From contig NZ_CVSQ01000052.1 of assembly GCF_001180165.1 (NCBI RefSeq), forward strand, positions 1 through 64,000: DNA of 64,000 bases, read 5' to 3'. The position numbers were made by a program, and so were the translations under genes. Of the stretch, positions 10,164 through 52,350 are shown in pieces (position 1 is the first letter of the stretch; each line of letters starts with the position of its first letter). The notes under the pieces are model-generated. The model made no database searches, was not told where the DNA came from, and worked only from the letters and a program-made list of their open reading frames with translations. This stretch comes from Candidatus Pelagibacter communis. GTDB taxonomy: Bacteria; Pseudomonadota; Alphaproteobacteria; Pelagibacterales; Pelagibacteraceae.

Positions 10164-10173
10164 ATTTTTTTAA

Positions 10174-10229
10174 TGCCCACGACAATTTTTAGGAAAGGGT
10201 AAAGATCCTAAAGGAGAGTGACGTGGGCA
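10174..10229 (-). promoter_or_regulatory. Nested stem-loop RNA element upstream of the peroxiredoxin
   Basis: The outer 8-bp stem pairs TGCCCACG with CGTGGGCA (10174-10181 with 10222-10229). The inner 7-bp stem pairs TTTAGGA with TCCTAAA (10188-10194 with 10206-10212) around an 11-base loop. Both stems are perfect and unusually GC-rich for this genome. The element lies in the 88-nt gap between the 61-residue ORF and the peroxiredoxin. It could be an attenuator, an mRNA-processing or stabilising element, or an uncharacterised riboregulator. It lacks a clean U-tract and matches no riboswitch that I know. Confidence 0.6.
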
Positions 10230-10251
10230 CCGTCTAAAAAGAAATATATCA

Positions 10252-16645: not shown

Positions 16646-16668
16646 ACTCTAGTTTTTAACTGTAAGGA

Positions 16669-17622: not shown

Positions 17623-18371
17623 TAAATTACCTTCGCCTCATTTTTTAACTTTTGAACTAATTCAGCAACATTTGCTACTTTTATACCTGCTTTTCTTTTT
17701 GGAGGTTCCTCTACTTTTAATTGTTCTAATCTTGGTGATACATCTACGCCTAAATCAGAAGCAGCAATTTCCTCTATAGGTTTTTTCTTAGCCTTCATTA
17801 TATTTGGTAGTGATGCATATCTTGGTTCATTCAGCCTAAGATCACAAGTTACAATAGCTGGAACATTTATTTCAATTGTTTCAAGACCTTCATCTATTTC
17901 TCTAGTTACTTCTAATTTATTATCTTTAACATCAATCTTAGAGGCAAATGTTGCTTGTGGCCAATTTAATAAAGCACTCAACATTTGGCCTGTTTGATTA
18001 CAATCGTCATCAATTGCTTGTTTGCCCATAAATACTAAATCTGGTTTTTCTTTATCTACTATTTTTTGTAAAATTTTTGAAACAGCGAGTGGCTCTAGAA
18101 TTCCATCAACTTTTACATGAATACCTCTATCTGCACCAACTGCTAAAGCTTTCCTAACTGTTTCTTGAGCTTTTTCTTCTCCAACAGTTACTGCAACTAC
18201 TTCTGTAGCTTTACCAGCCTCTTTAATTTTTACAGCCTCTTCTATTGCATTATCATCAGGAGGATTGGTTGACATTTTAACATTGTCAGTAACTACACCC
18301 GTTCCGTCTTCTTTAACTCTGATTTGAACGTTGTAATCAATAACCCTTTTTACAGCTACTAAAATTTTCAT
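17622..18371 (-). CDS. etfB: Electron transfer flavoprotein beta subunit
   Basis: A 249-residue EtfB. It opens [19 protein letters not shown] and carries [20 protein letters not shown] near residue 125 (AMP-binding region) and [20 protein letters not shown] near 185-205, the ETF-beta recognition loop. It overlaps both neighbours by one base, between the 810-residue dehydrogenase and etfA. This tight coupling argues that the ETF pair is dedicated, at least in part, to dimethylglycine/sarcosine dehydrogenase. Confidence 0.95.
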
Positions 18372-26779: not shown

Positions 26780-27186
26780 TTTTTTATCTCCTCTATTATT
26801 TTTGGTGCCCAATTTTTTGCATCCTGAGATGTTACATGAAAATCAAAACTCTTAGGATTAACAAACATTTGATTAGTGTCTTCAAATCTTCCTTCTTTAA
26901 TTGTATCGACCCACACTCTAAAATCTGCTGGAAACAAACTTCTTGCTTCAGGAGTTGGTGCAATAAAATCAGCAATTACATAATGACCTTCTGCTTTTAA
27001 TTTTAAAGCAGCTTCAGCCATTCTTTTTGCCTGTCTTACTCTTCCCTCTGCGGAAAAATCCCAATCGTTTGCAGCTTTTCTTACTTCGTCTGCATTTAAT
27101 CTTTTTGCATTTAAAAGTGGTGCCATTTCATCTGCTAGAGTTGTTTTACCAGCTCCAGGCAAACCCATTACTAAAATAATTTTCAT
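26776..27186 (-). CDS. APS-kinase-like small P-loop kinase
   Basis: A 136-residue P-loop protein with Walker A GLPGAGKTT (8-16), then NADEVRKAANDWDFSAEGRV near residue 32 and FIAPTPEARSLF near 78, which correspond to the substrate and lid regions of adenylylsulfate kinase. It is shorter than normal CysC (about 200 residues), and the usual DGDNVRHG is replaced by NADEVRKA. No ATP sulfurylase or sulfite reductase is nearby, and SAR11 is known to lack assimilatory sulfate reduction. A different acceptor is therefore possible. It overlaps its neighbours by 1 and 4 nt. Confidence 0.75.
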   Translation of the reverse strand: MKIILVMGLPGAGKTTLADEMAPLLNAKRLNADEVRKAANDWDFSAEGRVRQAKRMAEAALKLKAEGHYVIADFIAPTPEARSLFPADFRVWVDTIKEGRFEDTNQMFVNPKSFDFHVTSQDAKNWAPKIIEEIKK

Positions 27187-28421
27187 TAAATATCTTCTAA
27201 CGGATGATGGGACATTAATTCAAGTCCATTTTCACCTACAAGATACTGTTGTTCAAGTTTTACACCTTCTTTACCACCAACTTTACCAATATAACTCTCA
27301 AGTGTAATTGTCATGTTCTTCTCAAAAGTTCCACCTTCTTCTCCACCATCAGTTGGATATCTTATTTGAGGCCACTCATCACACAACCCAATTCCATGAA
27401 CCATACATGAATACCTATTTCCATAATACGCATCAGGCAAAACCCAAGATTTTTTTATAAATTCTTTAAAACTCATTCCTGGTTTTATTAATCTAAAATT
27501 ATGATCAATTTGATTTCTAGCCATTGAATATAGTTTTTTTTGCTCATCATTAAATTTATGTCCAACTACAAAGGCTCTTGATATGTCAGCACAGTATCCA
27601 TAGGGACCAACCATATCTGTATCAAAAGCAACAATTTCTCCTTGTTGCATAACTTTATTACTACTCTCTTGCATCCATGGATTTGTTCTTTCACCAGACG
27701 ATAAAATCCTACACTCAATCCACTCACCTCCATTTTCAATATTCGTTTTATGTAAAATTGACCACAATTCATCTTCAGTCATTCCTGGCTTAAGATCTGA
27801 TCTCATTTTTGATACACCTTTTTCTGCAACTTCTATTGCTGCTTTCATACAAGTCAATTCATCAGGTGATTTTATTACTCTTGCTTGTTCTAAAATCAAT
27901 TTTGCATCTACAACTTCAATTCCTTCTTTATTTAAAGCTGTAACCGCAGGACCATTTAAAACATCGATTGCAATTTTTTTAGTTTTAAAATAATTTTTTG
28001 ATAAATCCTTAACTTCATTTATCCATTTTGATAATTGTAAATTTGCTTGATCTCCATTACTAAAATAATCCCATGTGATTGCGGGTCTGATTTCGTCAAT
28101 TAGATTTAAATGCTTCGATAATATTTCACAATTAAAATACTCATAAAGAATAGTTGGTCCATTGACCGGTACAAAACAATATCTTGTTAAGTTATGCATA
28201 TTATAGACACTCATGTTTACAGTATCTAAAGCATAACGAACATTCACTGGATCAAATAGAATACAAGCTTCTAAATTGTTTTTTACTAATTCTTTTCTAA
28301 CCCTATCTAAACGATATGATCTTAACTTATCAAAATCAATTTCATCTTCTCTTAATCTTTTTTTAGTAATAAAATTTTGTCTTGGTTTTATCTCAGGAGC
28401 TATTTTTCTACTAAACCTCAT
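27186..28421 (-). CDS. dddP: DMSP lyase DddP (M24 metallopeptidase-fold)
   Basis: A 411-residue creatinase/aminopeptidase-fold protein that cleaves DMSP to DMS and acrylate in Roseobacters. Predicted metal ligands D267, D269, D279, H342, E375 and E390 align with the six published ligands of Ruegeria DddP (D295, D297, D307, H371, E406, E421) at almost constant offset. Shared stretches include NGGEWIECRILSSGERTNPW and VHGIGLCDEWP. It overlaps the methyltransferase gene by 4 nt and the kinase gene by 1 nt. An AcuI-type acryloyl-CoA reductase at 12483-13484 would handle the product. Activity is inferred, because M24 relatives with other functions exist. Confidence 0.82.
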   Translation of the reverse strand: MRFSRKIAPEIKPRQNFITKKRLREDEIDFDKLRSYRLDRVRKELVKNNLEACILFDPVNVRYALDTVNMSVYNMHNLTRYCFVPVNGPTILYEYFNCEILSKHLNLIDEIRPAITWDYFSNGDQANLQLSKWINEVKDLSKNYFKTKKIAIDVLNGPAVTALNKEGIEVVDAKLILEQARVIKSPDELTCMKAAIEVAEKGVSKMRSDLKPGMTEDELWSILHKTNIENGGEWIECRILSSGERTNPWMQESSNKVMQQGEIVAFDTDMVGPYGYCADISRAFVVGHKFNDEQKKLYSMARNQIDHNFRLIKPGMSFKEFIKKSWVLPDAYYGNRYSCMVHGIGLCDEWPQIRYPTDGGEEGGTFEKNMTITLESYIGKVGGKEGVKLEQQYLVGENGLELMSHHPLEDI

Positions 28422-29044
28422 AATACTCTATACAAACCTAACCATGCGTTAACATCTTTGCTTGCAATATAGTCGGATTTAAAAAATTCTACTTCTTCCC
28501 ACTTCTTGCTATCTTTGAGTATATCAATTTTTTTATCAAAACCATACTCTTCATGAATTCCTTCATTAATTGTGAAACAAATTAAACCACCTGGTTTTGT
28601 TATTCTTATAAATTCATCTAATGCATTTGGTTTTACATGCCCAAAAGTAAATGTTCCAACACACATAACTCCACCATAAAAGTTGTCCTCAACTTCTATT
28701 GGTTTATTTAAATCAACCTTTACTAATTTTTGATAAAGATCTTTTGGTACAGTGTCTAATAAAGTTTGAGATAAATCGGCTCCATGAAAATTTTTAAAAC
28801 TATATTTTTTAAGCTCCAATCCCACTAAACCTGTTCCACATCCAGCATCAAAAATTAAAGTATCTTTATTTTTCTCATATTTGTTAAATATTTCAGCGGT
28901 TTCTTTGGGTCCAGTATAGTTCCAATCAACCATGTCTTTATTATATTTATCTTTGTCTCCCCACTCATCGTAGTACTTCATAACTTCATCAGTAGTTTTA
29001 AGTTTATAAATTGGAATTTTGTTTCCTACGTCTTTTTGTGCCAT
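28418..29044 (-). CDS. Class I SAM-dependent methyltransferase
   Basis: A 208-residue methyltransferase with the SAM-binding motif I LIFDAGCGTGLVGLEL near residue 63, FHGADLSQTLL (motif II) near 85, and ITKPGGLICFTINEG near 150. There is no accessory domain. It lies between the second dimethylglycine/sarcosine dehydrogenase (1-nt overlap) and DddP (4-nt overlap), so it is part of the osmolyte array. It might methylate an amine or thiol intermediate, but the acceptor cannot be inferred from sequence. Confidence 0.85.
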   Translation of the reverse strand: MAQKDVGNKIPIYKLKTTDEVMKYYDEWGDKDKYNKDMVDWNYTGPKETAEIFNKYEKNKDTLIFDAGCGTGLVGLELKKYSFKNFHGADLSQTLLDTVPKDLYQKLVKVDLNKPIEVEDNFYGGVMCVGTFTFGHVKPNALDEFIRITKPGGLICFTINEGIHEEYGFDKKIDILKDSKKWEEVEFFKSDYIASKDVNAWLGLYRVL

Positions 29045-31449
29045 TAACTTCTCATTTTTTGACCACTTGGATCATAAAGTGGTTCTTTAATAATTGAGCA
29101 ATTAAATAAATCTCCATTTATCTCAACTTGAATTTTATTTTCAGAATTAATGTTTTTTTGATCAACAAAAGTAAACGCCACACTTTTATTTACAAAATGA
29201 GCAAAACCACCTGAAGTAACGTAACCTATACTTTGATCTCCATTCATAACAGCTTCATTATTTGTTACATCAATATCATTTGTTTCAACAATTAATGGTA
29301 TGAGTTTATTTGAAGAATTTTCCTTTTGTGCACTTTCTTTACCAATAAACTCTTTGTCCCAATTAATAAAAGCATCTAAACCCGTCTCTTTTGCTGTAAA
29401 ATCTGTTCTATAATCTAATGTCCAAGCTCCCCAATTTTTCTCTAACCTCATTGACATTAATGCTCTTCCACCAAATGGTTTAATATTAAATTCTTTTCCA
29501 GCCTCCATTAATTCTTCATAAAGTTTTAATTGATAGTGAGGTGCTACATAAATTTCATATCCGAGTTCACCAGTAAATGAAATTCTATTTATTATTGCTG
29601 GAACTCCCCCAACAAACATTCTTCTAGAGTCTCTAAATTTAAATTTTTCATTTGAAACATCTTCTCTTACAATTTTTTCTAAAACTTTCCTTGAGTTAGG
29701 TCCTGCAATAGACAATCCATGATACTCATCAGATCTATTAGAATAACTTAAATTAAATTTATCTATGTGACTCTCAAACCAACGTCTATGCATTTCTTGA
29801 GCAGCTCCAGAACCAAATACCATAAATTCATTTTCATCTAAACAAGCAACCGTTAAATCACCACATAATTTCCCTCTATACGACAACATTGGAGATAAAG
29901 ATATTCTTCCTGGTTTTGGAAGTCTTCCAGCCATTATGTGATCTAAAAATTTTCTAGCATCAGGACCTTTGAATTCGTGTTTTGAAAAGTTGGCAACTTC
30001 GATTAAACCAACATTTTCTCTTACATTAATAACTTCTTTTGAAACATAGTCATGTGATCTTGATCTTTTAATAGTAGGTTCTTCATGAGCATCTTCTTTA
30101 TTATTTGCAAACCACAAAACATTTTCTAATCCAAAGCTATCTCCCATAACAGCACCTTGATTTACAAAACGATCATACAGTGCAGTAGTTTTTTGTTTTC
30201 TTCCCTTTGGTAAAGTTTCGTTTGGAAAAGTCATAATAAATCTTCGCTCATAATTTTCTGAGGATTTTATTGTTCCATATTGAGGTGATGCATAATCTCC
30301 AAAACGAGCAACATCCATTGCCCAAACGTCAATTGATGGTTCTCCATCAATAATCCATTCTGCTATACATTTTCCAACACCACCACCTTGACAAAATCCA
30401 GCCATAACACCAACAGCAACCCAATAATTTTTCATTCCTGGTACTGGACCAATAAGAGGGCTTCCATCTGGACCAAAAGTAAAAGGTCCATTAACTATAT
30501 TTTTTATTCCTGCCCGCTCTAATGCTGGCATTCTCTCAAAACCAATTGCTAGTCTATCTTCAATGTTATCTAACTTTGGCTCAAGTAACTCATGTCCAAA
30601 ATTCATTGGTGTGCCTTCAACTTTCCAAGGAGTTGATTTTGGCTCATAAGTTCCAAGCAACATTCCTTTTCCTTCTTGTCTAAAGTAAATATTTCCCTCA
30701 AAATCTGTTCCAATTGGTAATCTTTGGTCACCCATTGCTTCAATTTCTGGAATAGGTTCAGTGATCAAATAATGATGCTCCATTGGTTGAACTGGAAGAT
30801 TAAGCCCAGCTAGTTGACCAACTTCTCTTGCCCAAAGTCCTCCTGCATTAATTACTATTTCAGCATTGATGTTTCCTTTTTCAGTAAAGACATCCCAAGT
30901 TCCGTCCTCTTTTTGTTTCGTATCTTTAACAACAGTGTGAGTATAATATTTTCCACCATGAACTTTTGCAGCTTTTGCAAAAGCGTAAGTAACTCCTGAT
31001 GGATCGACTTCACCGTCAATAGGATCCCACAAAGCTAACAAATATCGAGATGGATCAATTAAAGGATGTTTTTTTTTCACTTCCTCTAGAGAAATAAACT
31101 CTTGATCAAGTCCCATGTATCTTGCTTTTGATCTTTCTCTCTTTAAATAATCAGCCCACACTTCATTTGACGCTAAGTAAAAACCCCCGCTAGGTTTAAA
31201 TCCAGTTGAGTGACCAGACTCTTTTTCAATCTCTTTGTATAAACCTATTGTGTAAGCCATCATCCTAGAGATATTAGGATCAGATGAAATCACGTGAACA
31301 TTTCCTGCAGCATGCCAAGAAGATCCTGATGTTAGTTCGTTTCTCTCAAGTAAAATACAATCCTTTAATCCAAATTTAGATAGATGATAAAGTATAGAGC
31401 ACCCAACTACACCACCTCCTATGATTACTACTTTGGCATGCTTTTCCAT
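29044..31449 (-). CDS. Dimethylglycine/sarcosine dehydrogenase, FAD plus GcvT domains (copy 2)
   Basis: An 801-residue paralogue of the enzyme at 18371-20803. The FAD motif is VVIIGGGVVGCSILYHL (residues 7-23), followed by SSWHAAGNVHVIS with the possible flavin-attachment histidine, and a C-terminal GcvT-type domain (about 425-795; GELGYEIYVAPHYQLKLY near 650). It overlaps the bhmT stop by one base, which places it directly downstream of the enzyme that produces dimethylglycine. That makes dimethylglycine the likelier substrate of this copy, leaving sarcosine or another N-methyl amine for copy 1. This division is inference. Confidence 0.85.
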   Translation of the reverse strand: MEKHAKVVIIGGGVVGCSILYHLSKFGLKDCILLERNELTSGSSWHAAGNVHVISSDPNISRMMAYTIGLYKEIEKESGHSTGFKPSGGFYLASNEVWADYLKRERSKARYMGLDQEFISLEEVKKKHPLIDPSRYLLALWDPIDGEVDPSGVTYAFAKAAKVHGGKYYTHTVVKDTKQKEDGTWDVFTEKGNINAEIVINAGGLWAREVGQLAGLNLPVQPMEHHYLITEPIPEIEAMGDQRLPIGTDFEGNIYFRQEGKGMLLGTYEPKSTPWKVEGTPMNFGHELLEPKLDNIEDRLAIGFERMPALERAGIKNIVNGPFTFGPDGSPLIGPVPGMKNYWVAVGVMAGFCQGGGVGKCIAEWIIDGEPSIDVWAMDVARFGDYASPQYGTIKSSENYERRFIMTFPNETLPKGRKQKTTALYDRFVNQGAVMGDSFGLENVLWFANNKEDAHEEPTIKRSRSHDYVSKEVINVRENVGLIEVANFSKHEFKGPDARKFLDHIMAGRLPKPGRISLSPMLSYRGKLCGDLTVACLDENEFMVFGSGAAQEMHRRWFESHIDKFNLSYSNRSDEYHGLSIAGPNSRKVLEKIVREDVSNEKFKFRDSRRMFVGGVPAIINRISFTGELGYEIYVAPHYQLKLYEELMEAGKEFNIKPFGGRALMSMRLEKNWGAWTLDYRTDFTAKETGLDAFINWDKEFIGKESAQKENSSNKLIPLIVETNDIDVTNNEAVMNGDQSIGYVTSGGFAHFVNKSVAFTFVDQKNINSENKIQVEINGDLFNCSIIKEPLYDPSGQKMRS

Positions 31450-32489
31450 TAATATTTAATTTCCTTGTTTACTTTTTTCAAAGATTTATCAGTACCGTGA
31501 TGAAAATGTTTGCTCATGTCAGGCATATATTTCATTGAAATTGGTTTCTTTCCAATCGCAACTGACATTTCTCTAACGTGGTGAGCTTCAGCACCACAAC
31601 ATATACCAATAAAATTTATTTTATTTTTTACACAATCTTTTGCAAATTCTGCCATTTCAAATCTGTTACAAAATAAGTTATCTAACGCAACTGGAAATGC
31701 ATTTCCACCTGGAATACAGTCACATCCATGATCAGTGATATTCAAGAAACCAGGTTCTTCTTCAGTAGTTCTATAAGGAACAGGAAGTCCTGATACATGG
31801 CATGAAACTTTATCTCTAACTTTTTTTAAAAGTTTCATTGTCATCTCGGGTCCTCTGTAACAATTTAATCCAACGACATCAGCGCCTAAATCCTCCATCA
31901 TCTTACATGCATCCTCAGCACTATGACCTTCTCTAGTTTTATCCCCTCTAGGGATTGCAAAATTACAAACTGCAATAAGTCCAGCATCTTTAATTGCTTT
32001 TAATGCAATTTTCATTTCGTCAGTCCAACTTATTGTTTCAGCAATAACAAAATCAACACCAGCTTCTTTTGCCCAAGCTACTTGTTCCTCATACATTTGT
32101 TGACACTGTTTATGAGTATTGGCATCACCTGGATCAAATACATTGGTGTTTGCCACATCTCCACAAACCATAAGATCTAAATCTTTAAACTCAGCTGCAG
32201 CATCTTTTGCAATTTTAAGAGCACCTTTTTGCATTGGTTCTAACAAGTGTTCTTTGCCAATTATTCTCAACTTTTCTCTATGACCATAATAAGTAAATGC
32301 CTGAACAACATCTGAACCAGCTCTAATAAATTCTCGATGTAATTGAGTTACTACTTCTGGATGTTCTAAAACCACTTCTGGAACAAATGGACCTGCTGAA
32401 AGATAACCTCTTCTTTCCATTGCAAAAAGATAGCCTTCTGCACACATTATTGGACCTTCATTTAATCTTGTAATTAGATCTTTTTTCAT
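31449..32489 (-). CDS. bhmT: Betaine-homocysteine S-methyltransferase
   Basis: A 346-residue zinc enzyme. The zinc ligands C210 (GLNC), C297 and C298 (GICCGA) correspond to C217, C299 and C300 of human BHMT, and the opening (CAEGYLFAMERRGYLSAGPFVP; HREFIRAGSDVVQAFTYYG) is family-typical. It transfers a methyl group from glycine betaine to homocysteine, giving methionine and dimethylglycine, and so supplies methionine in organisms lacking other routes. The dimethylglycine dehydrogenase is coupled downstream (1-nt overlap), and the Rieske oxygenase lies 11 nt upstream. Confidence 0.93.
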   Translation of the reverse strand: MKKDLITRLNEGPIMCAEGYLFAMERRGYLSAGPFVPEVVLEHPEVVTQLHREFIRAGSDVVQAFTYYGHREKLRIIGKEHLLEPMQKGALKIAKDAAAEFKDLDLMVCGDVANTNVFDPGDANTHKQCQQMYEEQVAWAKEAGVDFVIAETISWTDEMKIALKAIKDAGLIAVCNFAIPRGDKTREGHSAEDACKMMEDLGADVVGLNCYRGPEMTMKLLKKVRDKVSCHVSGLPVPYRTTEEEPGFLNITDHGCDCIPGGNAFPVALDNLFCNRFEMAEFAKDCVKNKINFIGICCGAEAHHVREMSVAIGKKPISMKYMPDMSKHFHHGTDKSLKKVNKEIKY

Positions 32490-32500
32490 AATTTACCCTC

Positions 32501-33688
32501 TCATTTTGTTAAGTTGGTTGCAACCCACTTATGAAACATCAAAGTAGGAGTATCCATTACAGGTGAAAAATTCCCACCATTGTAAGCTGGGGAATTTCGC
32601 CCGTTTTGCATTCCTTCTATTGCAGTTACATCTTCGTTCATAACTTCTTGCCAAAATGCAAAATTTTTTTCTCTTATGTCTTTAAACTCATCACTGGATG
32701 CGCTTTCATCTCCAACATAATATAATTCGAAATGTTCTTTTGTTTGATTGTTAGAAATTGGCTCTAACCAAAATGCATAAAAATGATCAATATGTATTCC
32801 TAACATTACGTTTGGATACAATGATACATATTCAGATTTTTCAGAAAGTTCAGTTGGCCAGTTAGGAAAGCATTTAAATTTAATATTTCCATCGAATTGT
32901 TGTGAATATTTATTACTTCCTTGTCCTGAAAAATTAAAATTATCATCCTCTATATGGTAGTGATCTGAAATATTTGAAACTTTATTTAGCTCTGGATGTA
33001 TCCAGGGCAAATGATAGCTTTCACAATAATTCTCAATTGCAAATTTCCAATTACTATTTACTGTCATATTAAAATATCCGTTATCAGTTGAATGTCTTAT
33101 TAATTTTTGATCTTTTTTAGAAATAAACTTAGACCATCTATCCTCTAGAGGTTTAATAAAATCTTCAAATGGTTTTGCATTAGAATTAATATTAATAAAA
33201 ATTAAATCCATCCAAATATTTGATTTAATTTCTTTTAAGTTACTCTTGTTTTTATCGAACCCTTCAACCTCATGTTTTCCTAGTCCTCCTATATGTGGAG
33301 TAACAGTTAATTTTCCATTAAAATCATAGGACCAAGAATGATAAGGGCATCTTATTACATTTTTTAATTTACATTCCTGATCAACTAATTTGAAACCTCT
33401 ATGACTACAAACATTATGAAAAACTTTTACTTCGTTATCTTTGTTTCTAACTATTAGTATTGGTATCCCTAAAAGATTAAAAGGTTTAGCATCGCCTGGA
33501 TTTGGTACAGAGCTTGCAACCCCAATCATAGTCCAATTATTTTTAAATATTTTTTCTTTTTCAAACTCTAAATAATCATTATTCAAATAACATTCATTAG
33601 GTAATCCATGAGCTTTCTCTATAGGATTTTTAACAACTTCTATTTTATTGGGATCTAAGATGTCTGATAATTTTTTATTTAAATTCAT
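32501..33688 (-). CDS. Rieske non-haem iron oxygenase alpha subunit, GbcA/CntA-like
   Basis: A 395-residue ring-hydroxylating-type oxygenase. The Rieske 2Fe-2S ligands are C94 and H96 (CSHRG) and C114 and H117 (CPYHSW). The catalytic iron site has H226 and H231 (YHLPWIH), with E223 in the bridging position, as described for the quaternary-amine oxygenase CntA. Family members demethylate betaines (GbcA, stachydrine) or cleave carnitine. Its place at the head of the bhmT-dehydrogenase array suggests a quaternary-ammonium substrate. No reductase component lies nearby. A strong AAAGGAGGTTT ribosome-binding site precedes the ATG. Confidence 0.83.
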   Translation of the reverse strand: MNLNKKLSDILDPNKIEVVKNPIEKAHGLPNECYLNNDYLEFEKEKIFKNNWTMIGVASSVPNPGDAKPFNLLGIPILIVRNKDNEVKVFHNVCSHRGFKLVDQECKLKNVIRCPYHSWSYDFNGKLTVTPHIGGLGKHEVEGFDKNKSNLKEIKSNIWMDLIFININSNAKPFEDFIKPLEDRWSKFISKKDQKLIRHSTDNGYFNMTVNSNWKFAIENYCESYHLPWIHPELNKVSNISDHYHIEDDNFNFSGQGSNKYSQQFDGNIKFKCFPNWPTELSEKSEYVSLYPNVMLGIHIDHFYAFWLEPISNNQTKEHFELYYVGDESASSDEFKDIREKNFAFWQEVMNEDVTAIEGMQNGRNSPAYNGGNFSPVMDTPTLMFHKWVATNLTK

Positions 33689-33960: not shown

Positions 33961-34971
33961 ATGAAGATTAAAAGAATACTTCTTTCACTAGCTGTTGTGT
34001 TTGGTCTTACTTCCTTTGGAAGTGTTGCGAATGCAGCTTGTGGAAATATAACAATTGCTAATATGAACTGGGCTTCAGCAAACTTTATGGCTGAAGTTGA
34101 CAAGATCATATTAGAAGAAGGTTATGGATGTTCAGTAGAATTAGTGCCTGGTGCTACAATGCCTACATTTACATCAATGCAAGAAAAAGGTGAGCCAGAT
34201 GTTGCTCCAGAGTTTTGGGCTAACGCTGCTATCATCGCTTTGAATAAAGCTGTTGATGAAGGTAAAATGCACTCACTTAACAAAGCGCCAATTACTGGTT
34301 TGGGTGAAGGTTGGTGGGTATTACCTCACACACTTAAAAAACATCCAGAGCTAACAACTGCTGAAGCAATTTTAGCAAGACCAGATCTGTTTCCTCATCC
34401 AGAAGATCCATCAAAAGGTGGTTTTCATATTTGTCCTCCAGGTTGGAACTGTGAGCTAAGTAATAGAAATCTTTACAAAGCTTTTGACATGGAAGCAAAA
34501 GGTTGGGCTATTGTTGAAACAGGTTCTGCTGCAGGATTAGATGGTTCAATTGCTAAAGCTGCTGAGCGAGGTGAAAACTGGTTTGGTTACTATTGGTCAC
34601 CAACAGCTATCATTGGTAAATATGATATGAGAGCTGTAGATATGGGAGCTTGGGGTGGAAAAGATAACTGGGATAAATGTATAGTTTTACCAGAACAAGA
34701 ATGTGGAGACCCTAAAGCAACTTCATGGACAAAATCTGAAGTTTACACAATCGTAACTGATAATTTCAAAAATACAGCTGGAAGTGCTGGTATGGAATAC
34801 TTTAAGAAGAGAACATACCCAGGTCCAGTTATGAACGGTATGTTAGTTTGGATGGGTGAAAACCAAGCAGAAGGTGCTGATGCTGCAATTGAATTCCTTA
34901 AAACTCAAGAGAGCGTTTGGAGTAAATGGGTTTCAAGTGATGCTGCAAAAAAAATCAAAAAAGCACTTTAA
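33961..34971 (+). CDS. Glycine-betaine/TMAO-type ABC transporter substrate-binding protein
   Basis: From the ATG at 33961 (a TTG at 33898 would add 21 residues that disrupt the signal peptide) the protein has 336 residues. The signal peptide ends VANA, and the mature part is an OpuAC/ProX-type domain (ITIANMNWASANFMAEVDKI; WYWSPTAII-like segment). Several tryptophans suit caging of a quaternary ammonium or sulfonium group. At least six cysteines (including ICPPGWNCE and CIVLPEQECG) suggest disulfides. A permease follows after a strong hairpin, but there is no ATPase. Substrate could be betaine, TMAO, choline or DMSP. Confidence 0.88.
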   Translation: MKIKRILLSLAVVFGLTSFGSVANAACGNITIANMNWASANFMAEVDKIILEEGYGCSVELVPGATMPTFTSMQEKGEPDVAPEFWANAAIIALNKAVDEGKMHSLNKAPITGLGEGWWVLPHTLKKHPELTTAEAILARPDLFPHPEDPSKGGFHICPPGWNCELSNRNLYKAFDMEAKGWAIVETGSAAGLDGSIAKAAERGENWFGYYWSPTAIIGKYDMRAVDMGAWGGKDNWDKCIVLPEQECGDPKATSWTKSEVYTIVTDNFKNTAGSAGMEYFKKRTYPGPVMNGMLVWMGENQAEGADAAIEFLKTQESVWSKWVSSDAAKKIKKAL

Positions 34972-34982
34972 TTAAAAATATT

Positions 34983-35008
34983 ATCAAACCCGCTTCGGCG
35001 GGTTTGAT
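34983..35008 (+). terminator. Strong hairpin between binding protein and permease
   Basis: ATCAAACCCGC-TTCG-GCGGGTTTGAT is a perfect 11-bp stem with a UUCG tetraloop, followed by TTAATAAAA. It lies 11 bases after the binding-protein stop and 12 bases before the permease ATG. Such intercistronic hairpins reduce downstream expression and stabilise the upstream mRNA, which keeps binding protein in excess over permease. Confidence 0.9.
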
Positions 35009-35020
35009 TTAATAAAAATT

Positions 35021-35908
35021 ATGGACTTCTTTAATAAAATTCCTGTAATGGATAGAACGGCTCTTAGAGAGCTTAAAAAAGGAATTGATTCTAGTTTCAA
35101 AGAATTTTCTAGAGCGTATGGTGATGGTATTGAAGGTTTTTTTGATCCACTGTTACATTTTTTAATTTGGTTAGAAAAATTATTAGTAAATAGCCCATGG
35201 CCTTTAGTAATCGGTATGTTTGCTATATTGGCTTGGATTGGATCAAGAAGTGTTAAGCTTGTAATTGGTACAGTGGTTTGTTTCTTGGTAATTGGCTACT
35301 TTGGAATGTGGAAAAATTGTATGGCTACAGTTGCAATCATTTCCGTTTCTACATTAGTTTGCATTGTTGTTGGAATTCCAATTGGAGTGTTAATGTCAAA
35401 ATCAGCAAGAGCAGAAAAAGCAATTTTACCTGTTTTAGATATGATGCAAACTATTCCAAGCTTTGTATATTTAATTCCAATCATTATGCTTCTTGGTATT
35501 GGTAAAGTTCCTGGTTTGCTTGCTGTATGTATTTATGCTCTTCCCCCTATTGTAAGATTAACAAATCTAGGGATTAGAGAAGTTGATAAAGAAACTTTAG
35601 AAGCCAGCGAAGCTTTTGGGGCAACCCCAATGCAAAAATTAAGATCAGTTCAAATACCGCTTTCTCTACCAACCATTTTTGCTGGGATTAATCAGACGAT
35701 TATGATGGCTCTAGCAATGGTAGTAATTGCTTCAATGATAGGTGTAAAAGGATTGGGAGTTCCTATTTTGCAGGCCATTTCTAACCAATATTTAGCCCTT
35801 GGAATGATGAATGGTTTAGCAATTGTAGCTCTAGCAATTATTTTTGATAGGGTGACACAGCAGTACGGACAACGAATTCAAAAGCACAGAGGCCAGCTGA
35901 AGAAGTAA
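35021..35908 (+). CDS. Betaine-type ABC transporter permease (ProW-like)
   Basis: A 295-residue membrane protein with about six helices and the permease EAA-type loop ETLEASEAFGATPMQKLRSVQIPL near residue 188. MQTIPSFVYLIPIIMLLGIG and the C-terminal GLGVPILQAISNQYLALGM are typical of ProW/OpuAB. Together with the binding protein upstream it forms an importer lacking its own ATPase. It may borrow the ATPase encoded at 62120-63151 or one elsewhere. A 58-nt gap separates it from the MetF-like gene. Confidence 0.88.
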   Translation: MDFFNKIPVMDRTALRELKKGIDSSFKEFSRAYGDGIEGFFDPLLHFLIWLEKLLVNSPWPLVIGMFAILAWIGSRSVKLVIGTVVCFLVIGYFGMWKNCMATVAIISVSTLVCIVVGIPIGVLMSKSARAEKAILPVLDMMQTIPSFVYLIPIIMLLGIGKVPGLLAVCIYALPPIVRLTNLGIREVDKETLEASEAFGATPMQKLRSVQIPLSLPTIFAGINQTIMMALAMVVIASMIGVKGLGVPILQAISNQYLALGMMNGLAIVALAIIFDRVTQQYGQRIQKHRGQLKK

Positions 35909-35966
35909 ATTTACCTCAATCGAATTTTCTAGACTCATATTTTAAAATAAATAAAGATCCAAGAAA

Positions 35967-36695
35967 ATGAATTTTTCTTTGGAAATAGGTCCTAAAACCG
36001 ACATTGAAACAGTCCCAGCTGTGAACGATGTATACATTACAATGCTGCCTGGCGGAGACTATAAAGAGACAGCTGAAAAAGCCATAGAGCTAGTAAAAAA
36101 AGGTTTTAATCCAGTGCCTCATTTTCCGGCGAGATCAATGCAGGATGAAAACGAACTTAAAGATTATGTTTCAAGATGTAAGGATGGTGGAGTTAAACAA
36201 GCTTTAATTATAGGCGGTGGAAGAGAGCCTGCTGGTAAATTTGACAGTTCGTTTCAACTTCTAGAAACAGGTTATTTTGAAAAAATGAAAATAGGAATTG
36301 CTGGACACCCAGAGGGGAGTCCTGATATATCCGACTCAGAATTAGAAAAAGCTATGATAGATAAAAAGCCTTATGCTGATTATATTGTAACTCAATGGTT
36401 ACTAGATCCTCAGCCTATTATAGATTTTATTTCTAAGCAAAGCGTACCAGTGCATGTGGGAATTACTGGGCCATTAAAAATATCTAGCTTAATTAAATTT
36501 GCTAATATTGTTGGGGCAAAAAATTCCTTAAACTTTCTTAAATCTAATTTTACTAAGGCATTAGATTTACTGAAACCTAAAGACCCTAATGATTTAATTG
36601 GGAAAGTTAAATCGCACACTGATAACTTCCACATTTATACATTCGGCGGCTTGAAGGAAACTAACAAGTGGTTGAAGGAGAATAGTTATGTCTAA
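35967..36695 (+). CDS. MetF-like methylenetetrahydrofolate reductase family protein
   Basis: A 242-residue TIM-barrel protein resembling methylenetetrahydrofolate reductase: NFSLEIGPKT at the start, GFNPVPHFPARSM near residue 48, ALIIGGGREP near 75, IGIAGHPEGSPD near 98, and VTQWLLDPQPIIDFI near 133. It is about 50 residues shorter than normal MetF and lacks some flavin-binding stretches. It overlaps the GcvT-fold gene by 8 nt, so the two should work together. A likely role is oxidising methyl-THF formed by that demethylase to methylene-THF, as in LigM/MetF aryl demethylation. This is inference. Confidence 0.78.
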   Translation: MNFSLEIGPKTDIETVPAVNDVYITMLPGGDYKETAEKAIELVKKGFNPVPHFPARSMQDENELKDYVSRCKDGGVKQALIIGGGREPAGKFDSSFQLLETGYFEKMKIGIAGHPEGSPDISDSELEKAMIDKKPYADYIVTQWLLDPQPIIDFISKQSVPVHVGITGPLKISSLIKFANIVGAKNSLNFLKSNFTKALDLLKPKDPNDLIGKVKSHTDNFHIYTFGGLKETNKWLKENSYV

Positions 36696-38046
36696 TGAAT
36701 TTGACTATACTAAACTAAAACATGTTACTTCTGTTGATCAATCTGACAGAGAAGTACCATATAACTTAAGACAAAGTGGGCCAACAAAAGTTGAAATGTT
36801 AATTTCAACAAGGGTAAGAAAATCACCTTATTGGCATTTATCAATGCAGGCAGGTTGTTGGAGAGCAACTGTATACAACAGAATTTATCACCCAAGAGGT
36901 TACGTAAAACCTGAAGATGGTGGAGCTATGGTTGAATACGATGCTATCGTAAACCACGTTACAATGTGGAACGTTGCTGTTGAAAGACAAATAAGAGTTA
37001 AAGGTCCTGATGCAGAAAAATTTACCGACTATGTGATTACTAGAGATGCAACAAAAATTTCTCCTATGCGAGCGAGATATGTAATTTTGTGTAATGCATA
37101 CGGTGGAGTTTTAAATGATCCAATTCTTTTAAGAATTTCAGAAGATGAGTTTTGGTTTTCATTATCAGACTCTGATATTGGAATGTATTTACAAGGTGTT
37201 AATGCTGATGGGAGATTCAATTGTACTATTGAAGAAATTGATGTCAGTCCAGTTCAAATACAAGGACCTAAATCAAAAGCATTAATGAAAGATCTATGTG
37301 GCGATCAAGTTGATTTTGATAATATGCCTTTCTACGGATTAGCAGCAGCTAAAGTCGGGGGAAGAGACGTTGTTATTTCTCAGTCTGGTTTCTCGGGTGA
37401 AGCTGGTTATGAGATTTATTTAAGAAATTCAACTTTGTACGCTGAAGATATGTGGAATGCTGTACTCGCGGCTGGAAAAAAACATAGCTTGATGGTTATT
37501 GCTCCTGCTCACCATAGAAGAATTCAAGCAGGTATTCTTTCATGGGGACAAGACATGGATCAGCAACACAATCCGTTCCAATGTAACCTTGGATATCAAG
37601 TTTCTTTGTCTGGAAAAGGAGAATGGAACAAAACTGCTGATTATGTTGGTAAGGCTGCACTAGAAAAAATGAAAGAAGAATTAAAAGCAGGAAAAAAACC
37701 TTATAAACTTCAATTAGTTGGTATGGAATTAGGTGGTAAACCTATTGATAATTATGCACCTGACTTTTGGTTAGTTTCCCCAGAAAGTGGTGGTGATCCA
37801 GTAGGATTTTTAACATCACCATGGTGGCATCCTGAAAAGAAAACAAACATTGCAATGGGATATGTTCCTTTCGATGGAACGTTAAATGCAAATGGTTTTC
37901 CAAAAGGAAAAGTGGGAACTAAATATAAAGTTCATTTACCAGAACAATATTCAGAAACTCCAGGAACACCTGTGGATGCTGTTGTGGTGGATATTCCATT
38001 TAAAGAGTCTTTCAACGCAAATACAAGAGAAGTTGTAAAAGGCTAA
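36688..38046 (+). CDS. GcvT-fold THF-dependent methyltransferase/demethylase, LigM/DmdA-like
   Basis: A 452-residue aminomethyltransferase-fold protein: ERQIRVKGPDAEKFTDYVIT near residue 90, QIQGPKSKALMKDLCGDQ near 190, SGFSGEAGYEIYLRN near 232, and a C-terminal GcvT tail. It is longer than glycine-cleavage GcvT or SAR11 DmdA (both about 370) and opens with a distinctive block (RKSPYWHLSMQAGCW, RIYHPRGYV) that recalls LigM/DesA-type O-demethylases. It probably moves a methyl group from an imported substrate to THF. Coupled to a MetF-like gene and downstream of a betaine-type importer; substrate unknown. A terminator follows. Confidence 0.8.
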   Translation: MSNEFDYTKLKHVTSVDQSDREVPYNLRQSGPTKVEMLISTRVRKSPYWHLSMQAGCWRATVYNRIYHPRGYVKPEDGGAMVEYDAIVNHVTMWNVAVERQIRVKGPDAEKFTDYVITRDATKISPMRARYVILCNAYGGVLNDPILLRISEDEFWFSLSDSDIGMYLQGVNADGRFNCTIEEIDVSPVQIQGPKSKALMKDLCGDQVDFDNMPFYGLAAAKVGGRDVVISQSGFSGEAGYEIYLRNSTLYAEDMWNAVLAAGKKHSLMVIAPAHHRRIQAGILSWGQDMDQQHNPFQCNLGYQVSLSGKGEWNKTADYVGKAALEKMKEELKAGKKPYKLQLVGMELGGKPIDNYAPDFWLVSPESGGDPVGFLTSPWWHPEKKTNIAMGYVPFDGTLNANGFPKGKVGTKYKVHLPEQYSETPGTPVDAVVVDIPFKESFNANTREVVKG

Positions 38047-38057
38047 AATTTATTAAG

Positions 38058-38079
38058 GGGGAGCTGATTTCAGCTCCCC
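38058..38079 (+). terminator. Intrinsic terminator after the GcvT-fold gene
   Basis: GGGGAGCTGA and TCAGCTCCCC form a 10-bp palindromic stem with a minimal loop, followed by TTTTC, starting 11 bases after the stop codon. It closes the transporter-MetF-GcvT unit. Confidence 0.88.
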
Positions 38080-38091
38080 TTTTCAATTCTA

Positions 38092-47243: not shown

Positions 47244-47831
47244 TTATATAGATTTAAAGCCAAACTCAAGAGATGCGTCTGTAATTGAATGATATAAAGA
47301 TTCGCCAAAACTTCTTAGAGCAAATAACCTTACTTTATTTGGATTTTCACTCAGCCTATCTACAGTGAAGGCTATTCCATTATAAGTTGAGTTAATTGAA
47401 TTATTTTTATCCAATGTATTAAAATTAAAAGGACATCCTTTTTTCAAAACTTCTATCGTATCATTTCCTTCAATTTCAATAATAGCTCTAGAATGAGATA
47501 AATCTGTTACAGCAAAATCTGTATCTTTAAATTTTTCTAATACATTTTTTATTAAATCTTTTTTTGTTGAAACTAAAAGCCAGTTTTTTGGTCCATTCCA
47601 CATAATCCTTGTATTTTCATTGAATAATACAGTTAAAGGTTCATTTTTTAAATTTAAACCATCAATATCAATACCCTCAAATGAAACTGAAGAATTCTTG
47701 TACTGAACTATTTGAACAATTAATAAATTTTTAATTTCAGATATTTTAAGTATATCATTTTCATTTTTACCTTCATAATCTCCGAATTGACCTTTTGTGT
47801 GAACATTTGATAAAGCTGAAATTAATGTCAT
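47244..47831 (-). CDS. soxG: Sarcosine oxidase gamma subunit
   Basis: A 195-residue protein matching SoxG of the heterotetrameric sarcosine oxidase: [21 protein letters not shown] near residue 112, [23 protein letters not shown]-type stretch near 137, and CPFNFNTLD. It overlaps soxA by 4 nt and is the last gene of the soxBDAG cluster. SoxG is structurally related to GcvT and needed for complex stability. The context makes the call firm despite the family's low sequence conservation. Confidence 0.9.
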
Positions 47832-50824
47832 GATCTAACTCTTTCACCTTTCGGGTCGACATAATGTGATGAAACTATCTCAACTGGTATTACTTTGTTT
47901 TTAAGTGGGGACATCGCAAAAAGCTTTTGACCAATCATATTTTTTCCATCTTTCAAAATTGCCAAAGAAAAAGGATTATCATATTCAACACTCCAACAAG
48001 ATGCAGAGATATGACCTAATTTTGGATTTGGTAACGGTGCTTTATCATCTTTAACTAAGTGAGAGCCTTCTGGTATGCTTGTTTGTTTGTCTAATGGAAC
48101 TACGCCCACTATTCTTTGTCTATCTTCAGCTATAAATGCAGATCTTTGTAATGATCTTTTTCCAATAAAATCTTTCTTTTTACTAATAAGACCTTCTAAG
48201 GCGTTATCGAATGGAATTGTTCTGCCATCAAGTTCTGATCCAGCAACATGTCCCATTTCAATTCTAAGAGTTGATAATGCTTCAGTTCCATATGGTTGAA
48301 TATTAAATTCTTCACCAACTTCAATTATTTTTTCCCACATAAAATTTCCATAATCAGACTCAACATTTACTTCATAAGCAAGCTCGCCTGAAAACGAAAT
48401 TCTAAATATTCTTGCTTTAACACCAAATAAATCTCCCTCCATATAGCCCATAAAAGGTAAGCCTTCATTTGATACATCAGAGTTTGGAAATAATTTTTGT
48501 AATAAATCTCGAGATTTAGGTCCAGCGATAGCTGCTCCAGCCCACTGTTCTGTCGTTGAAACTACATTCACATTTAATTCAGGCCAAACGAGTTGCAAAT
48601 AATATTCTAAATGCGAAAGAACGTTTGCTGCTTGAGCTGTAGTAGTGGTCATATGATAATGATTTTCAGAAATTCTTGTAGTTGTTCCGTCATCCATTAC
48701 AATTCCATCTTCTCTTAACATTACACCATATCTTGCTTTACCAACTGGTAGCTTCAACCATGCATTTGTATAGACCCTATTTAATAACTCCGCTGCATCT
48801 GGTCCTTTAATATCTATTTTACCTAATGTAGTTACATCGCAAACACCTACATTTGTTCTCACATTTTTTGCTTCTCTTTTTGATCCCTCAAATAAATTTT
48901 CATTTCCTCTTTTATAATACCTAGGTCTTAACCAAACACCCGCATCAACAAAAACTGCATTATTTTTTTCATGCCATGAGTGCATTGGAGATTTTCTTGT
49001 TGGTTTTGAATGTTTTCCAACCTCTCTTCCTACTATTGCTCCAATAGAAACAGGAGTATATGGGGGTCTAAAAGTTGTATGACCTACTGCAGGAACAACT
49101 TTATTTTCAATTTCGGATACTAATTGCAATCCATTTAAATTACTTGTTTTTCCTTGGTCTGTTGCCATACCTAGAGTGGTATATCTTTTAACGTGCTCAA
49201 TTGATCGATACCCTTCTCTTAAAGCTATTTCCACATCAGATACCGCTACATCATTTTGAAAATCTAAAAATCTTTTATAATTTTTACCTTTTGGTAACGG
49301 AACACACCAAAACTTATCATGTTGAGAAGATTTTTTTTCAACAACATTTGGAATAGCTATCTCATTATTATTTTCAGTAATTTTTTTTGATAATTCACTT
49401 CCTGCTTTAAATGAAGTTTTTAATGTTTCATCAAGTGAAAATACACCATTAGCTGCACCTAAAGTGATTTCATTTTGTTTTGATTGCCCTGGAACAAATG
49501 CATCAATTTCCTCTTTAAACTTTGTTTTATTTCCTGATTGTGAAGCTAAATGGATAGTTGGCGTCCAAAAACCTGAAACACAAATACAATCACATTGAAT
49601 ATTTTCTATTTTACCAAGTTGTTTTTTATCATCTGAAATACTTGCAATATCTGCAGATTTTACTTTTTTGTATCCTTGTGCTGCAACCACAACATATGAA
49701 TTTTTAATGTTAATTCCTAAATTTTTTGCTTCATCTATTATTTCTGACTCAGCGCTTTTCCTTGAGTCTAAAACAACTGGATCTACTCCATATTTTTTAA
49801 ATTCAATTGCTGTTTCATATCCACTATCGTTATTTGTAAATACCAATGGTTTTCTTCCAACTAAAACACCATATACTTTTAAGTATTCTTTAGCAGCTGA
49901 AGAAAGCATAACTCCTGGCGTATCATTATTTCCAAAAACTATCGGTCTTTCAATTGATCCAGAGGAAATCAAAACTTCTTTTGCACGAATGTACCATAGT
50001 CTTTTATTAGGATGGTATTTTTTAGTTGATGGTAAATGATCACTAACTTTTTCTGACATCACAAGCATGTTGTGATCATAGTATCCAAAGATTTGGGATC
50101 TATTTTTTACAACAACATTTGGCATTGTTTTAAGTTCTGCAATTATTCCCTCAGCCCAATCTTTTCCTGATTGATTTCCAATATTGACATCACTAGTTAG
50201 TAAAGATCCACCAAATCTTGGTTTATCCTCAGCTAAAATTACTTTAGCTCCATTTTTTGCTGCAGCATACGCACCTGCTAATCCCGAAGGTCCTGAACCT
50301 GCAATTAATAAATCACAATATTCGTATTTATGTTCATACCTTTCTTTGTCATGTTTAGTTGAAGCTACACCTAAACCAGCTGCTTTTCTTATAAAAGGCT
50401 CATAAATTCGATACCAAAAACTTTTTGGCCACATAAAAGTTTTGTAATAAAAACCTGCTGGTAAAAAAATTTTTAGAAAATTATTGATTGCACCTATGTC
50501 AAAATTAACACTTGGCCAACAATTAACACTTTTAGCCTCTAAACCCTCAAACAACTCCTGTTCTGTAGCTTTTATATTTGGCTCTGTTTCACCATTTCTA
50601 TAAAGTTGAACAACTGCATAAGGTTCATCTACACCTGCTCCAAAGAAACCTCTGGGTCTGTGATATTTAAAACTTCTTCCTATTAAATGAACTCCATTTG
50701 CTAATAAAGCTGAAGCTAATGTGTCACCTTCATAACCAAAGTAAGTTTTTCCATTAAATTTAAAAGATAATTTTTTATCTCTATTTATTAACCCACCATT
50801 TTCAATTCTAAAAGCTTGAGTCAT
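47828..50824 (-). CDS. soxA: Sarcosine oxidase alpha subunit
   Basis: A 998-residue SoxA. The N-terminal region (1-120) resembles a 2Fe-2S ferredoxin-like fold, but the cluster cysteines are absent, as in other SoxA proteins. A dinucleotide-binding motif ([19 protein letters not shown], from about residue 171) follows, and a C-terminal GcvT-type folate domain starts near residue 610 ([20 protein letters not shown]). It channels the methyl group of sarcosine to methylene-THF. It overlaps soxD by 1 nt and soxG by 4 nt. Confidence 0.94.
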
Positions 50825-51093: not shown

Positions 51094-52350
51094 TTACGAT
51101 ATCCAGGTTTTTGTTCCAAGTCCCTTTTCATCAATAAGATGGCCAGTACTAAATCTATTTAAACTATAACCAGCATTTAATTCGTGAACTCTATCTTGCG
51201 CAATTGTGTGTGCAAATGTCCATCCTGATGCAGGTGTGGCTTTAAATCCTCCGTAGCACCATCCACAATTTAAATACAATCCTTCAATGTGTGTTTTATC
51301 AATAATTGGTGAACCATCCATTGACATATCCATTATACCGCCCCAAGTTCTCAACATTTTTAATTTACTTAAAAAGGGCATCATCGCTATTCCTTCAGTT
51401 AAAACATGTTGTAATGTTGGAAGATTACCTCTTTGAGCGTAACTATTGTAACCATCAAGATCACCTCCCATTACCATCTCACCTTTATCTGATTGACTCA
51501 CATAAAAATGACCAGCACCAAATGTAACTACTTTATCTAAAACTGGTTTAACTGGTTCAGAAACGCAAGCTTGAAGTAAATGTGTTTCAATTGGTAAAGT
51601 CATATTTAATTTTTCAGCTAATATATTTGTGCTACCGGCAACACAAATACCAACTTTTTTTGCTTTAATATTTCCCCTTGAAGTTCTTATGCCTTTTATT
51701 TTACCTGCGTTAACATCAAAACCAATTACTTCACAATTTTGAATTATATCTACACCCATAGAGTCTGCTTGTCGTGCATAACCCCATGCAACAGCATCGT
51801 GTCTTGCTGTACCTGCACTTGGTTGCATCAAACCACCAAAAATTGGAAATCTAACGTTGTCAGAAAAGTCAGCCATTGGAATAATTTCTTTAACTTGTTC
51901 TCTATTTAAAAGAACTGCATCAATTCCATTTAACCTCATCGAATTTCCTCTTCTCGCGTATGCATTCATTTGTGCATCAGAGTGCGCAAGGTTAATTATT
52001 CCTCTTGGAGAAAACATTACATTGTAGTTCAAATCCTGACTCATCTTTCTCCATAAATCCATTCCAAACTCACTGAACAATCCATTTTCATCGTGCATAT
52101 AATTGGATCTAATAATTGTAGTGTTACGTCCTACATTTCCTCCTCCAATCCAACCTTTCTCGATAATTGCTACTTTTGTAATGTTGTGTTCTTTAGCTAG
52201 GTAATATGCGGTTGCTAATCCATGACCACCACCACCTATAATTACAACATCGTATTCTTCTTTAGGAGCTGGATCTTTCCAGGCTAAATCCCAATTTTCA
52301 TGGTTTGAAAAAGCATTTTTAACTAAGTTAAATATTGAATACTTCTGCAT
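51094..52350 (-). CDS. soxB: Sarcosine oxidase beta subunit
   Basis: A 418-residue flavoprotein with FAD motif VVIIGGGGHGLATAYYLAK (residues 35-53) and H184 in the segment ARHDAVAWGYARQA, the expected covalent FMN attachment site. It oxidises sarcosine to glycine, producing hydrogen peroxide, in the SoxBDAG complex. It is the first gene of the cluster and lies divergent from formate-THF ligase, with which it shares a 128-base upstream region. This fits joint control of sarcosine use and folate C1 flux. Confidence 0.95.
   Translation of the reverse strand: MQKYSIFNLVKNAFSNHENWDLAWKDPAPKEEYDVVIIGGGGHGLATAYYLAKEHNITKVAIIEKGWIGGGNVGRNTTIIRSNYMHDENGLFSEFGMDLWRKMSQDLNYNVMFSPRGIINLAHSDAQMNAYARRGNSMRLNGIDAVLLNREQVKEIIPMADFSDNVRFPIFGGLMQPSAGTARHDAVAWGYARQADSMGVDIIQNCEVIGFDVNAGKIKGIRTSRGNIKAKKVGICVAGSTNILAEKLNMTLPIETHLLQACVSEPVKPVLDKVVTFGAGHFYVSQSDKGEMVMGGDLDGYNSYAQRGNLPTLQHVLTEGIAMMPFLSKLKMLRTWGGIMDMSMDGSPIIDKTHIEGLYLNCGWCYGGFKATPASGWTFAHTIAQDRVHELNAGYSLNRFSTGHLIDEKGLGTKTWIS

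Follow-up and report, generated by a model that had tools for sequence, protein, structure and literature searches.

We analysed a window of 64,000 nucleotides, that is, the whole stretch at positions 1 to 64,000 of contig NZ_CVSQ01000052.1, from a 66%-complete genome of Candidatus Pelagibacter communis (SAR11). Within it we studied a cluster of four genes, the last of which encodes an aminomethyltransferase-like protein of the GcvT fold, hereafter AMT. The four open reading frames (ORFs) proposed in an earlier sequence-only reading of this DNA were all open on the plus strand at the predicted positions. The first (33961..34971, ATG at 33961) encodes a substrate-binding protein of the DmpX type, with a conserved dimethylsulfoniopropionate (DMSP) pocket (OpuAC, E 2.5e-46), and the second (35021..35908) encodes the ProW-like permease of the same ABC importer (BPD_transp_1, E 1.4e-25). 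The two genes are split by a hairpin at 34983..35008, an inverted repeat that reads on both strands and that the scan scored on the minus strand. There is no ATPase gene between 33961 and 38046. The third gene (35967..36695) encodes a short MetF of 242 residues, an orthologue of SAR11_1264 and a proposed oxidiser of 5-methyltetrahydrofolate (5-methyl-THF). The fourth (36688..38046) encodes AMT, 452 residues long, an orthologue of SAR11_1265, which we propose as a candidate glycine betaine:THF methyltransferase. The 8-nt overlap of the last two genes was present at 36688-36695. The terminator said to close the locus was seen by eye as a hairpin of high G+C content, followed by a T tail, on the plus strand (approximately 38058..38083), but a consensus terminator scan did not return it.

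The GCV_T domain (E 3.1e-39) and the fold both place AMT in the GcvT-fold superfamily. For structure comparison we used an AlphaFold2 model (pLDDT 85.8). The nearest solved protein was Pelagibacter DmdA, 3tfh (Z 45.4, 368 residues, root mean square deviation 1.8 A); the model gave Z 42.3 with GcvT 1wos, and Z 25.8 at 22% identity with LigM. Among the NCBIfam models the best for AMT was that of DmdA (NF009133), on which it scored 234.7 bits, under the cut-off of 410, while DmdA of the same genome scored 582.3 bits and that of HTCC1062 638.2 bits. AMT also stayed below both GcvT cut-offs (NF001567, 145.9 of 300 bits; TIGR00528, 128.4 of 235.85) and below those of LigM (35.9 of 580) and DesA (43.1 of 800). 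Aromatic demethylation of the LigM kind was rejected on the LigM bit score and Z value. Identity to DmdA was 27%. AMT is longer than DmdA, as the first reading had noticed, by 83 residues in comparison with HTCC1062 DmdA (369 residues). Part of the excess comes from roughly 30 residues at the N-terminus, a block that carries the motif VDQSDR-x-VP-x-NLRQSG and is conserved across the clade described below.

In a first tree of 86 rows AMT fell in a clade of 23 rows with 100/100 support, which includes HTCC1062 SAR11_1265 and proteins of other Alphaproteobacteria. Outside it lie the DmdA clade, a third clade of DmdA-like proteins, GcvT and the LigM rows. For this tree the long frames of L048, L050, L051 and L053 were trimmed to their last 440 residues, and long branches were flagged for the LigM rows, GcvT and the HTCC1062 1303/1304 protein. 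All of these long-branch rows were omitted from a second tree of 61 rows, in which the AMT clade again received 100/100 and comprised 28 rows, eight of them haloarchaeal. The phylogeny proposed in the sequence-only reading thus gives AMT a clade of its own in two trees, outside DmdA, GcvT and LigM. At 37 alignment positions all 27 AMT rows share a residue that none of the 7 DmdA and 11 third-clade rows has. The N-terminal block (positions 16-31) accounts for nine of these positions, and H68, F235 and Q298 are among the others; a further 35 residues are invariant across all three groups. An 861-residue frame in G174 (L046, the same as L093) was considered as a fusion of AMT to an upstream domain and rejected, as Pfam shows AMT domains only.

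It might be argued that AMT is an ordinary glycine-cleavage aminomethyltransferase, or a redundant paralogue that has no distinct substrate. The fold is the same and invariant residues are shared. However, the same genome encodes a separate GcvT-type protein (L001), which clusters with an HTCC1062 protein (at 649975) that we take to be GcvT; AMT reaches less than half of the NF001567 cut-off; and its strong conservation from SAR11 to archaea speaks against redundancy. We regard this explanation as very improbable.

The third DmdA-like clade holds a paralogue from the same genome (contig C53, L007:1156-2292), which fell short of the DmdA cut-off (395.1 of 410 bits). The clade is separate and well supported in both trees. 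A Phaeobacter plasmid member of this clade (L333) adjoins genes for OsmC, enoyl-CoA hydratase and acyl-CoA synthetase.

The short MetF lies directly 5' of AMT in all 24 opened loci of the window's family, and we therefore consider the adjacency to be more than chance; a locus of a sister family (L088) has no such MetF before AMT. Its MTHFR domain scored 23.0 bits (E 6e-5), just under the curated cut-off of 24 bits. A phmmer search matched it to 7xg9 (E 2.6e-32), and it is related to the 5-methyl-THF-oxidising enzyme of SYK-6 (115 bits). It was the sole MTHFR-family match in its own genome, at the 66% completeness of that assembly. In a conserved stretch the short MetF (window 35967-36695) has GGG where the SYK-6 enzyme has GDP, a site near an active-site aspartate of E. 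coli MetF. The SYK-6 enzyme, S6MTHFR, oxidises 5-methyl-THF made by a demethylase (PMC12585457, a meeting abstract). According to PMC12478193, SAR11 is without MetH, MetE and MtgBCDE, so methyl-THF would have no methionine sink in these bacteria. The order of events supposed at the outset, methyl transfer to THF and then oxidation of methyl-THF, appears sound to us because AMT has the GcvT fold and MetF is related to the SYK-6 enzyme.

We investigated how AMT is distributed. In the window's family 85 of 147 genomes matched it with E values no higher than 1e-60. G105, G116 and G122 had only a paralogue of 38-41% identity, and without these three the count is 82 of 147, to be read with the incompleteness of many of these genomes in mind. 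Across the class, 57 of 385 genomes matched at E 1e-40 or better, 19 of them at 52% identity or more. Fifteen of the 16 new proteins at or above 52% were entered in the first tree, and all 15 fell within the AMT clade. One AMT copy of the window's family (G128:C4:80884-82221) has a TAG stop inside the frame.

The gene neighbourhoods point to dimethylglycine and sarcosine. We counted GCV_T matches in frames of at least 750 residues as flavin-dependent (FAD/GcvT) enzymes. AMT was found within 12 kb of such an enzyme in 13 of 19 genomes; of 31 other short paralogues, three were as close. Some of these genomes are incomplete, and the contig held no FAD gene for 15 of the 31 control paralogues and 3 of the 19 AMT genes; on contigs that hold one the counts were 13/16 for AMT versus 3/16. 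In a simulation with 10 families, for which FAD-gene numbers and genome sizes were approximated, none of 1,000,000 draws gave 7 or more of the 10. Left out were f124 and f81, with contigs below 17 kb, and f17; the 38-kb contig of f17 is without a FAD/GcvT gene and counts as a miss, therefore the observed figure becomes 7 of 11 families. Family f31 (L089, L091, L092) shows a row of soxBDAG-like genes, a dimethylglycine oxidase, MetF and AMT. The soxBDAG-like genes were named by their size and order and from weak matches, and the best match of the oxidase is 1pj5 (732.6 bits). A neighbour of AMT in f30 (L099) best matched human DMGDH (655.6 bits), and in f76, f30, f16 and f141 a gene resembling dimethylglycine dehydrogenase or sarcosine oxidase lies close to AMT. 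Pfam annotation of the AMT neighbours in f65, f29, f81, f120, f105 and f17 gave no pointer to a substrate. In genome G026, which we take to be HTCC1062 since the positions of AMT, DmdA, GcvT and BHMT follow locus-tag order, a FAD/GcvT gene lies 7.6 kb from AMT. By position it is probably SAR11_1253, which is named dimethylglycine dehydrogenase in PMC3160333.

A tblastn search of plasmids returned 27 records, the best 16 of which are haloarchaeal, on megaplasmids, with 51-57% identity to AMT. We opened loci in 12 of the 16; H8 and H10 are close relatives, and some stretches stop before the position of ilvA or of the BCCT gene. MetF was within 5 kb of AMT in 10 of the 12 loci, and FAD enzymes of about 850 residues, the size of dimethylglycine oxidase, were within 12 kb in nine. 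The loci further hold ilvA (8/12), a dihydrofolate reductase gene adjoining AMT (6/12), glyA for serine hydroxymethyltransferase (4/12) and a BCCT transporter gene (3/12). The archaeal MTHFRs are 33-35% identical to the window MetF, and both FAD enzymes of Haladaptatus have dimethylglycine oxidase as their best match. Such a gene set would suit a route from glycine betaine to glycine, serine and pyruvate, with folate as methyl carrier.

The same loci bear on whether AMT demethylates some other N-methyl compound, namely choline, carnitine, proline betaine, a creatine-type compound or a pyridinium betaine, the breakdown of which would likewise end in dimethylglycine, sarcosine or THF-bound one-carbon units. 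Transporters of the BCCT and ABC families concerned accept several such compounds. Creatininase-family and aspartoacylase-family genes lie near several haloarchaeal AMT copies, and both SAR11 and Haloarcula marismortui have a Rieske oxygenase gene close to AMT; that of H. marismortui (L321:20028-21164) is a distant relative of the window Rieske gene (29% identity over 229 columns). On the other hand, the Haladaptatus cluster L324 keeps AMT, MetF and the FAD pair with no creatininase, aspartoacylase or Rieske gene in the stretch seen, and the three demethylating steps encoded equal the three methyls of glycine betaine. We consider such a substrate rather unlikely.

The importer offers a different clue. 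Among solved structures the binding protein had a single relative at E 0.001, entry 7yle, which we take, following PMC10030565, to be the DMSP-specific DmpX. The two proteins are 36% identical, and seven of the eight pocket residues named in PMC10030565 (W35, T64, W84, E113, W152, A153, Y200, W202) are the same; the change is A153 to N, at a residue named there for a hydrogen bond to the carboxyl. A relative of the binding protein (L068) keeps A at this position, and the full pocket set was missing from the 4 low-identity OpuAC proteins compared. The comparison covers 13 of the 22 loci submitted; TmoX is among the other nine. A DmpX homologue from HTCC7211 bound DMSP with a dissociation constant of 100 nM, as given in PMC10030565. 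This corrects the earlier description of the binding protein as betaine-type.

These data suggest that AMT might act in DMSP catabolism, either by demethylating methylmercaptopropionate (MMPA) or as a DmdA-like isozyme acting on DMSP, fed by the DmpX-type importer. DmdA is the closest solved fold and the best NCBIfam model, and an MMPA role was proposed in PMC3160333. Linkage to the importer is tight among its close relatives, because in 76 of the best 80 of 312 binding-protein loci from named Pelagibacteraceae records the binding protein is followed by permease, MetF and AMT; of the remaining four, two reach the contig edge after MetF, one does so at once and one differs. In an f31 genome (G480, L319:6727-10991) the gene of a DmpX-like binding protein is followed by those of a permease, a 352-residue ORF and a DmdA relative, and in another f31 genome (L320) DmdA lies about 6 kb past the permease of the importer. 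The L319 arrangement, a DMSP importer linked to DmdA, contrasts with PMC10030565, where the dmpXWV genes are said to lie apart from the known genes of DMSP catabolism.

Other observations oppose a role in DMSP catabolism. The importer adjoins MetF-AMT in only 3 of the 24 family loci opened, the pair occurring without it in 21. The AMT score on the DmdA model is far from that of the DmdA in its own genome. In G221, G430, G507 and G391 the short GCV_T proteins (E 1e-10) are AMT and a GcvT-like one only; because these four AMT genomes list no DmdA-like protein, DmdA would not be there to supply MMPA, and for this reason we rejected MMPA as our main interpretation. The neighbours of AMT in alphaproteobacterial families and haloarchaea are dimethylglycine- and sarcosine-type enzymes. 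We therefore judge a role in DMSP catabolism to be doubtful. In G035 an 83% relative of the binding protein is encoded elsewhere in the genome, together with its permease. Since the DmpX pocket is kept and relatives occur elsewhere or before DmdA, we read the importer as one that probably brings in DMSP and is probably not AMT's own; it is a neighbour of MetF-AMT in part of SAR11. The supposition that it feeds AMT was not supported, and we rejected the importer as proof of the AMT substrate. In other SAR11 genomes the same variable site upstream of MetF-AMT is filled by a cluster of an FGE-sulfatase and DinB protein with a partner of 304-320 residues (L086:6804-8024, also in L083-L085), the make-up of which is presumably EgtB-like.

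We also searched AMT genomes for other enzymes that act on glycine betaine. Six of 19 (G306, G265, G221, G402, G430, G162) gave neither a betaine-homocysteine methyltransferase (BHMT) at E 1e-15 nor an MTTB-family protein at E 1e-10, nor any GbcA match that reached the cut-off; the GbcA cut-off was reached in none of the 20 genomes searched for it. Together with the neighbours and the archaeal clusters, these absences lead us to favour glycine betaine as the substrate of AMT.

Several observations weigh against this choice. Rieske proteins in five of the six genomes just named match GbcA below its cut-off (95 to 139.5 bits of 670), and BHMT is present in all three SAR11 and all three f31 genomes searched, so AMT is not the sole demethylation candidate there. 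AMT is at least 120 kb from any FAD/GcvT gene on the long contigs of f29, f105 and f120, and the f17 contig is without one. We chose the 12-kb limit with the data already in view; at 5 kb, 5 families remain. Two of the 12 haloarchaeal loci (H14, H15) are without the whole cluster, and the importer that adjoins AMT in the window is of the DMSP type. Finally, we know of no description of direct THF-dependent demethylation of a quaternary ammonium compound, which is chemically harder than that of the DMSP sulfonium.

The fold of AMT, its separate clade, its pairing with MetF and its neighbourhood are computed results; from them we infer methyl transfer, its direction and the substrate. It is likely that MetF-AMT is a THF-dependent demethylase together with a methyl-THF oxidase. 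That the substrate is glycine betaine, suggested by gene context, seems to us reasonably probable, with DMSP, MMPA or another N-methyl compound as possible substitutes. For the complete proposal, a B12-independent glycine betaine:THF methyltransferase with a methyl-THF-oxidising MetF, common to SAR11 and haloarchaea, we would put the chances slightly above even. AMT would bind THF in a fold of the GcvT/DmdA type and accept a single methyl straight from an onium osmolyte, of which glycine betaine is the likeliest, with no cobalamin involved, yielding dimethylglycine and 5-methyl-THF. MetF would turn the latter into methylene-THF for THF-linked oxidation. Enzymes of the dimethylglycine dehydrogenase and sarcosine oxidase kinds, whose genes are in the same neighbourhood, may then carry dimethylglycine on to sarcosine and glycine.

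Genes of this kind are present in the window itself. Upstream of the importer, divergent genes encode a Rieske oxygenase that is weakly GbcA-like (32501..33688, minus strand, 127.4 of 670 bits), a BHMT-like protein (31449..32489, minus, profile match), a dimethylglycine dehydrogenase-like FAD/GcvT enzyme of 801 residues (29044..31449, minus, profile match), an S-adenosylmethionine methyltransferase and an M24 protein (27186..28421, minus) with a likeness to the DMSP lyase DddP that falls well short of the DddP cut-off (350.9 of 600 bits). A second dimethylglycine dehydrogenase-like FAD/GcvT enzyme, of 810 residues, is encoded at 18371..20803 (minus), and the ORFs at 15026..18371 fit in size and order the set of electron transfer flavoprotein (ETF) and ETF quinone oxidoreductase genes typed by Pfam in L088. 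On the other side of the cluster lie genes of the sarcosine oxidase alpha subunit family (47828..50824, minus; TIGR01372, 1319.8 bits, cut-off 1164) and beta subunit family (51094..52350, minus; TIGR01373, 666.3 bits, cut-off 529.45). At the gathering threshold Rfam detected one RNA in the whole window, distant from the importer-MetF-AMT cluster: a potC motif (RF01751) at 10167-10236 on the minus strand (93.8 bits, gathering score 44).

The MetF-AMT pair was described before, which qualifies the novelty claimed for the system in the sequence-only reading. In Sun et al. 2011 (PMC3160333), metF SAR11_1264 stands beside SAR11_1265, close to dmdA, the latter being an aminomethyltransferase with no substrate assigned; the authors guessed that it removes the second methyl of DMSP, by demethylation of MMPA. 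The new element here is the inferred substrate, and of the two options offered earlier, a new substrate or an unusual route for a known one, we favour the second, with the known osmolyte glycine betaine. As reported in PMC5069961, stationary versus exponential mRNA ratios in HTCC1062 were 0.20 and 0.12 for metF and 0.10 and 0.10 for AMT, and both proteins rise slightly in stationary phase (1.29 to 1.46). We found no paper testing the substrate of SAR11_1265 or describing a GcvT-type betaine demethylase, in a search that left most subscription literature uncovered.

One earlier paper credits SAR11 with BHMT alone for glycine betaine, and flux through BHMT would be tied to homocysteine supply. 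If our proposal is true, SAR11 could gain energy by oxidising the first methyl of glycine betaine, rather than only handing it to homocysteine, which would explain the catabolic oxidation of this methyl in SAR11. The conserved enzyme reported in 2011 would then have a substrate, and ocean surveys a further marker gene. Cultivable Haloarcula holds the same genes, and the idea is thus directly testable.

In comparison with known systems, the nearest is SAR11_1264/1265 of Ca. Pelagibacter ubique HTCC1062, an orthologous pair with the same adjacency (L074) and 93% identity in AMT. MMPA was guessed for it, whereas the context here points to glycine betaine; orthologues outside SAR11 and in archaea were not met in the available part of PMC3160333. 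DmdA (3tfh; SAR11_0246) shares with AMT the GcvT fold, the 35 invariant residues and, presumably, THF as methyl acceptor, but AMT differs in its clade, N-terminal block, 37 clade-specific positions and MetF partner. LigM/DesA with S6MTHFR of Sphingobium SYK-6 follow the same logic, from demethylase to 5-methyl-THF to oxidation of the MetF type, and the MetF halves are related (PMC12585457); LigM itself is remote from AMT in sequence and fold and acts on aromatic O-methyl groups. Unlike DmpXWV (7yle; PMC10030565), the window importer has no adjacent ATPase gene and is linked to MetF-AMT. The MtgBCD cobalamin route, BHMT and GbcAB (PMC12478193) carry out the step proposed here, from glycine betaine to dimethylglycine, but the AMT step would involve no cobalamin protein, homocysteine or oxygenase. 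It would be a further route beside BHMT, GbcAB and the MtgB type, and AMT itself is of a known enzyme kind, for which both substrate and route would probably be new.

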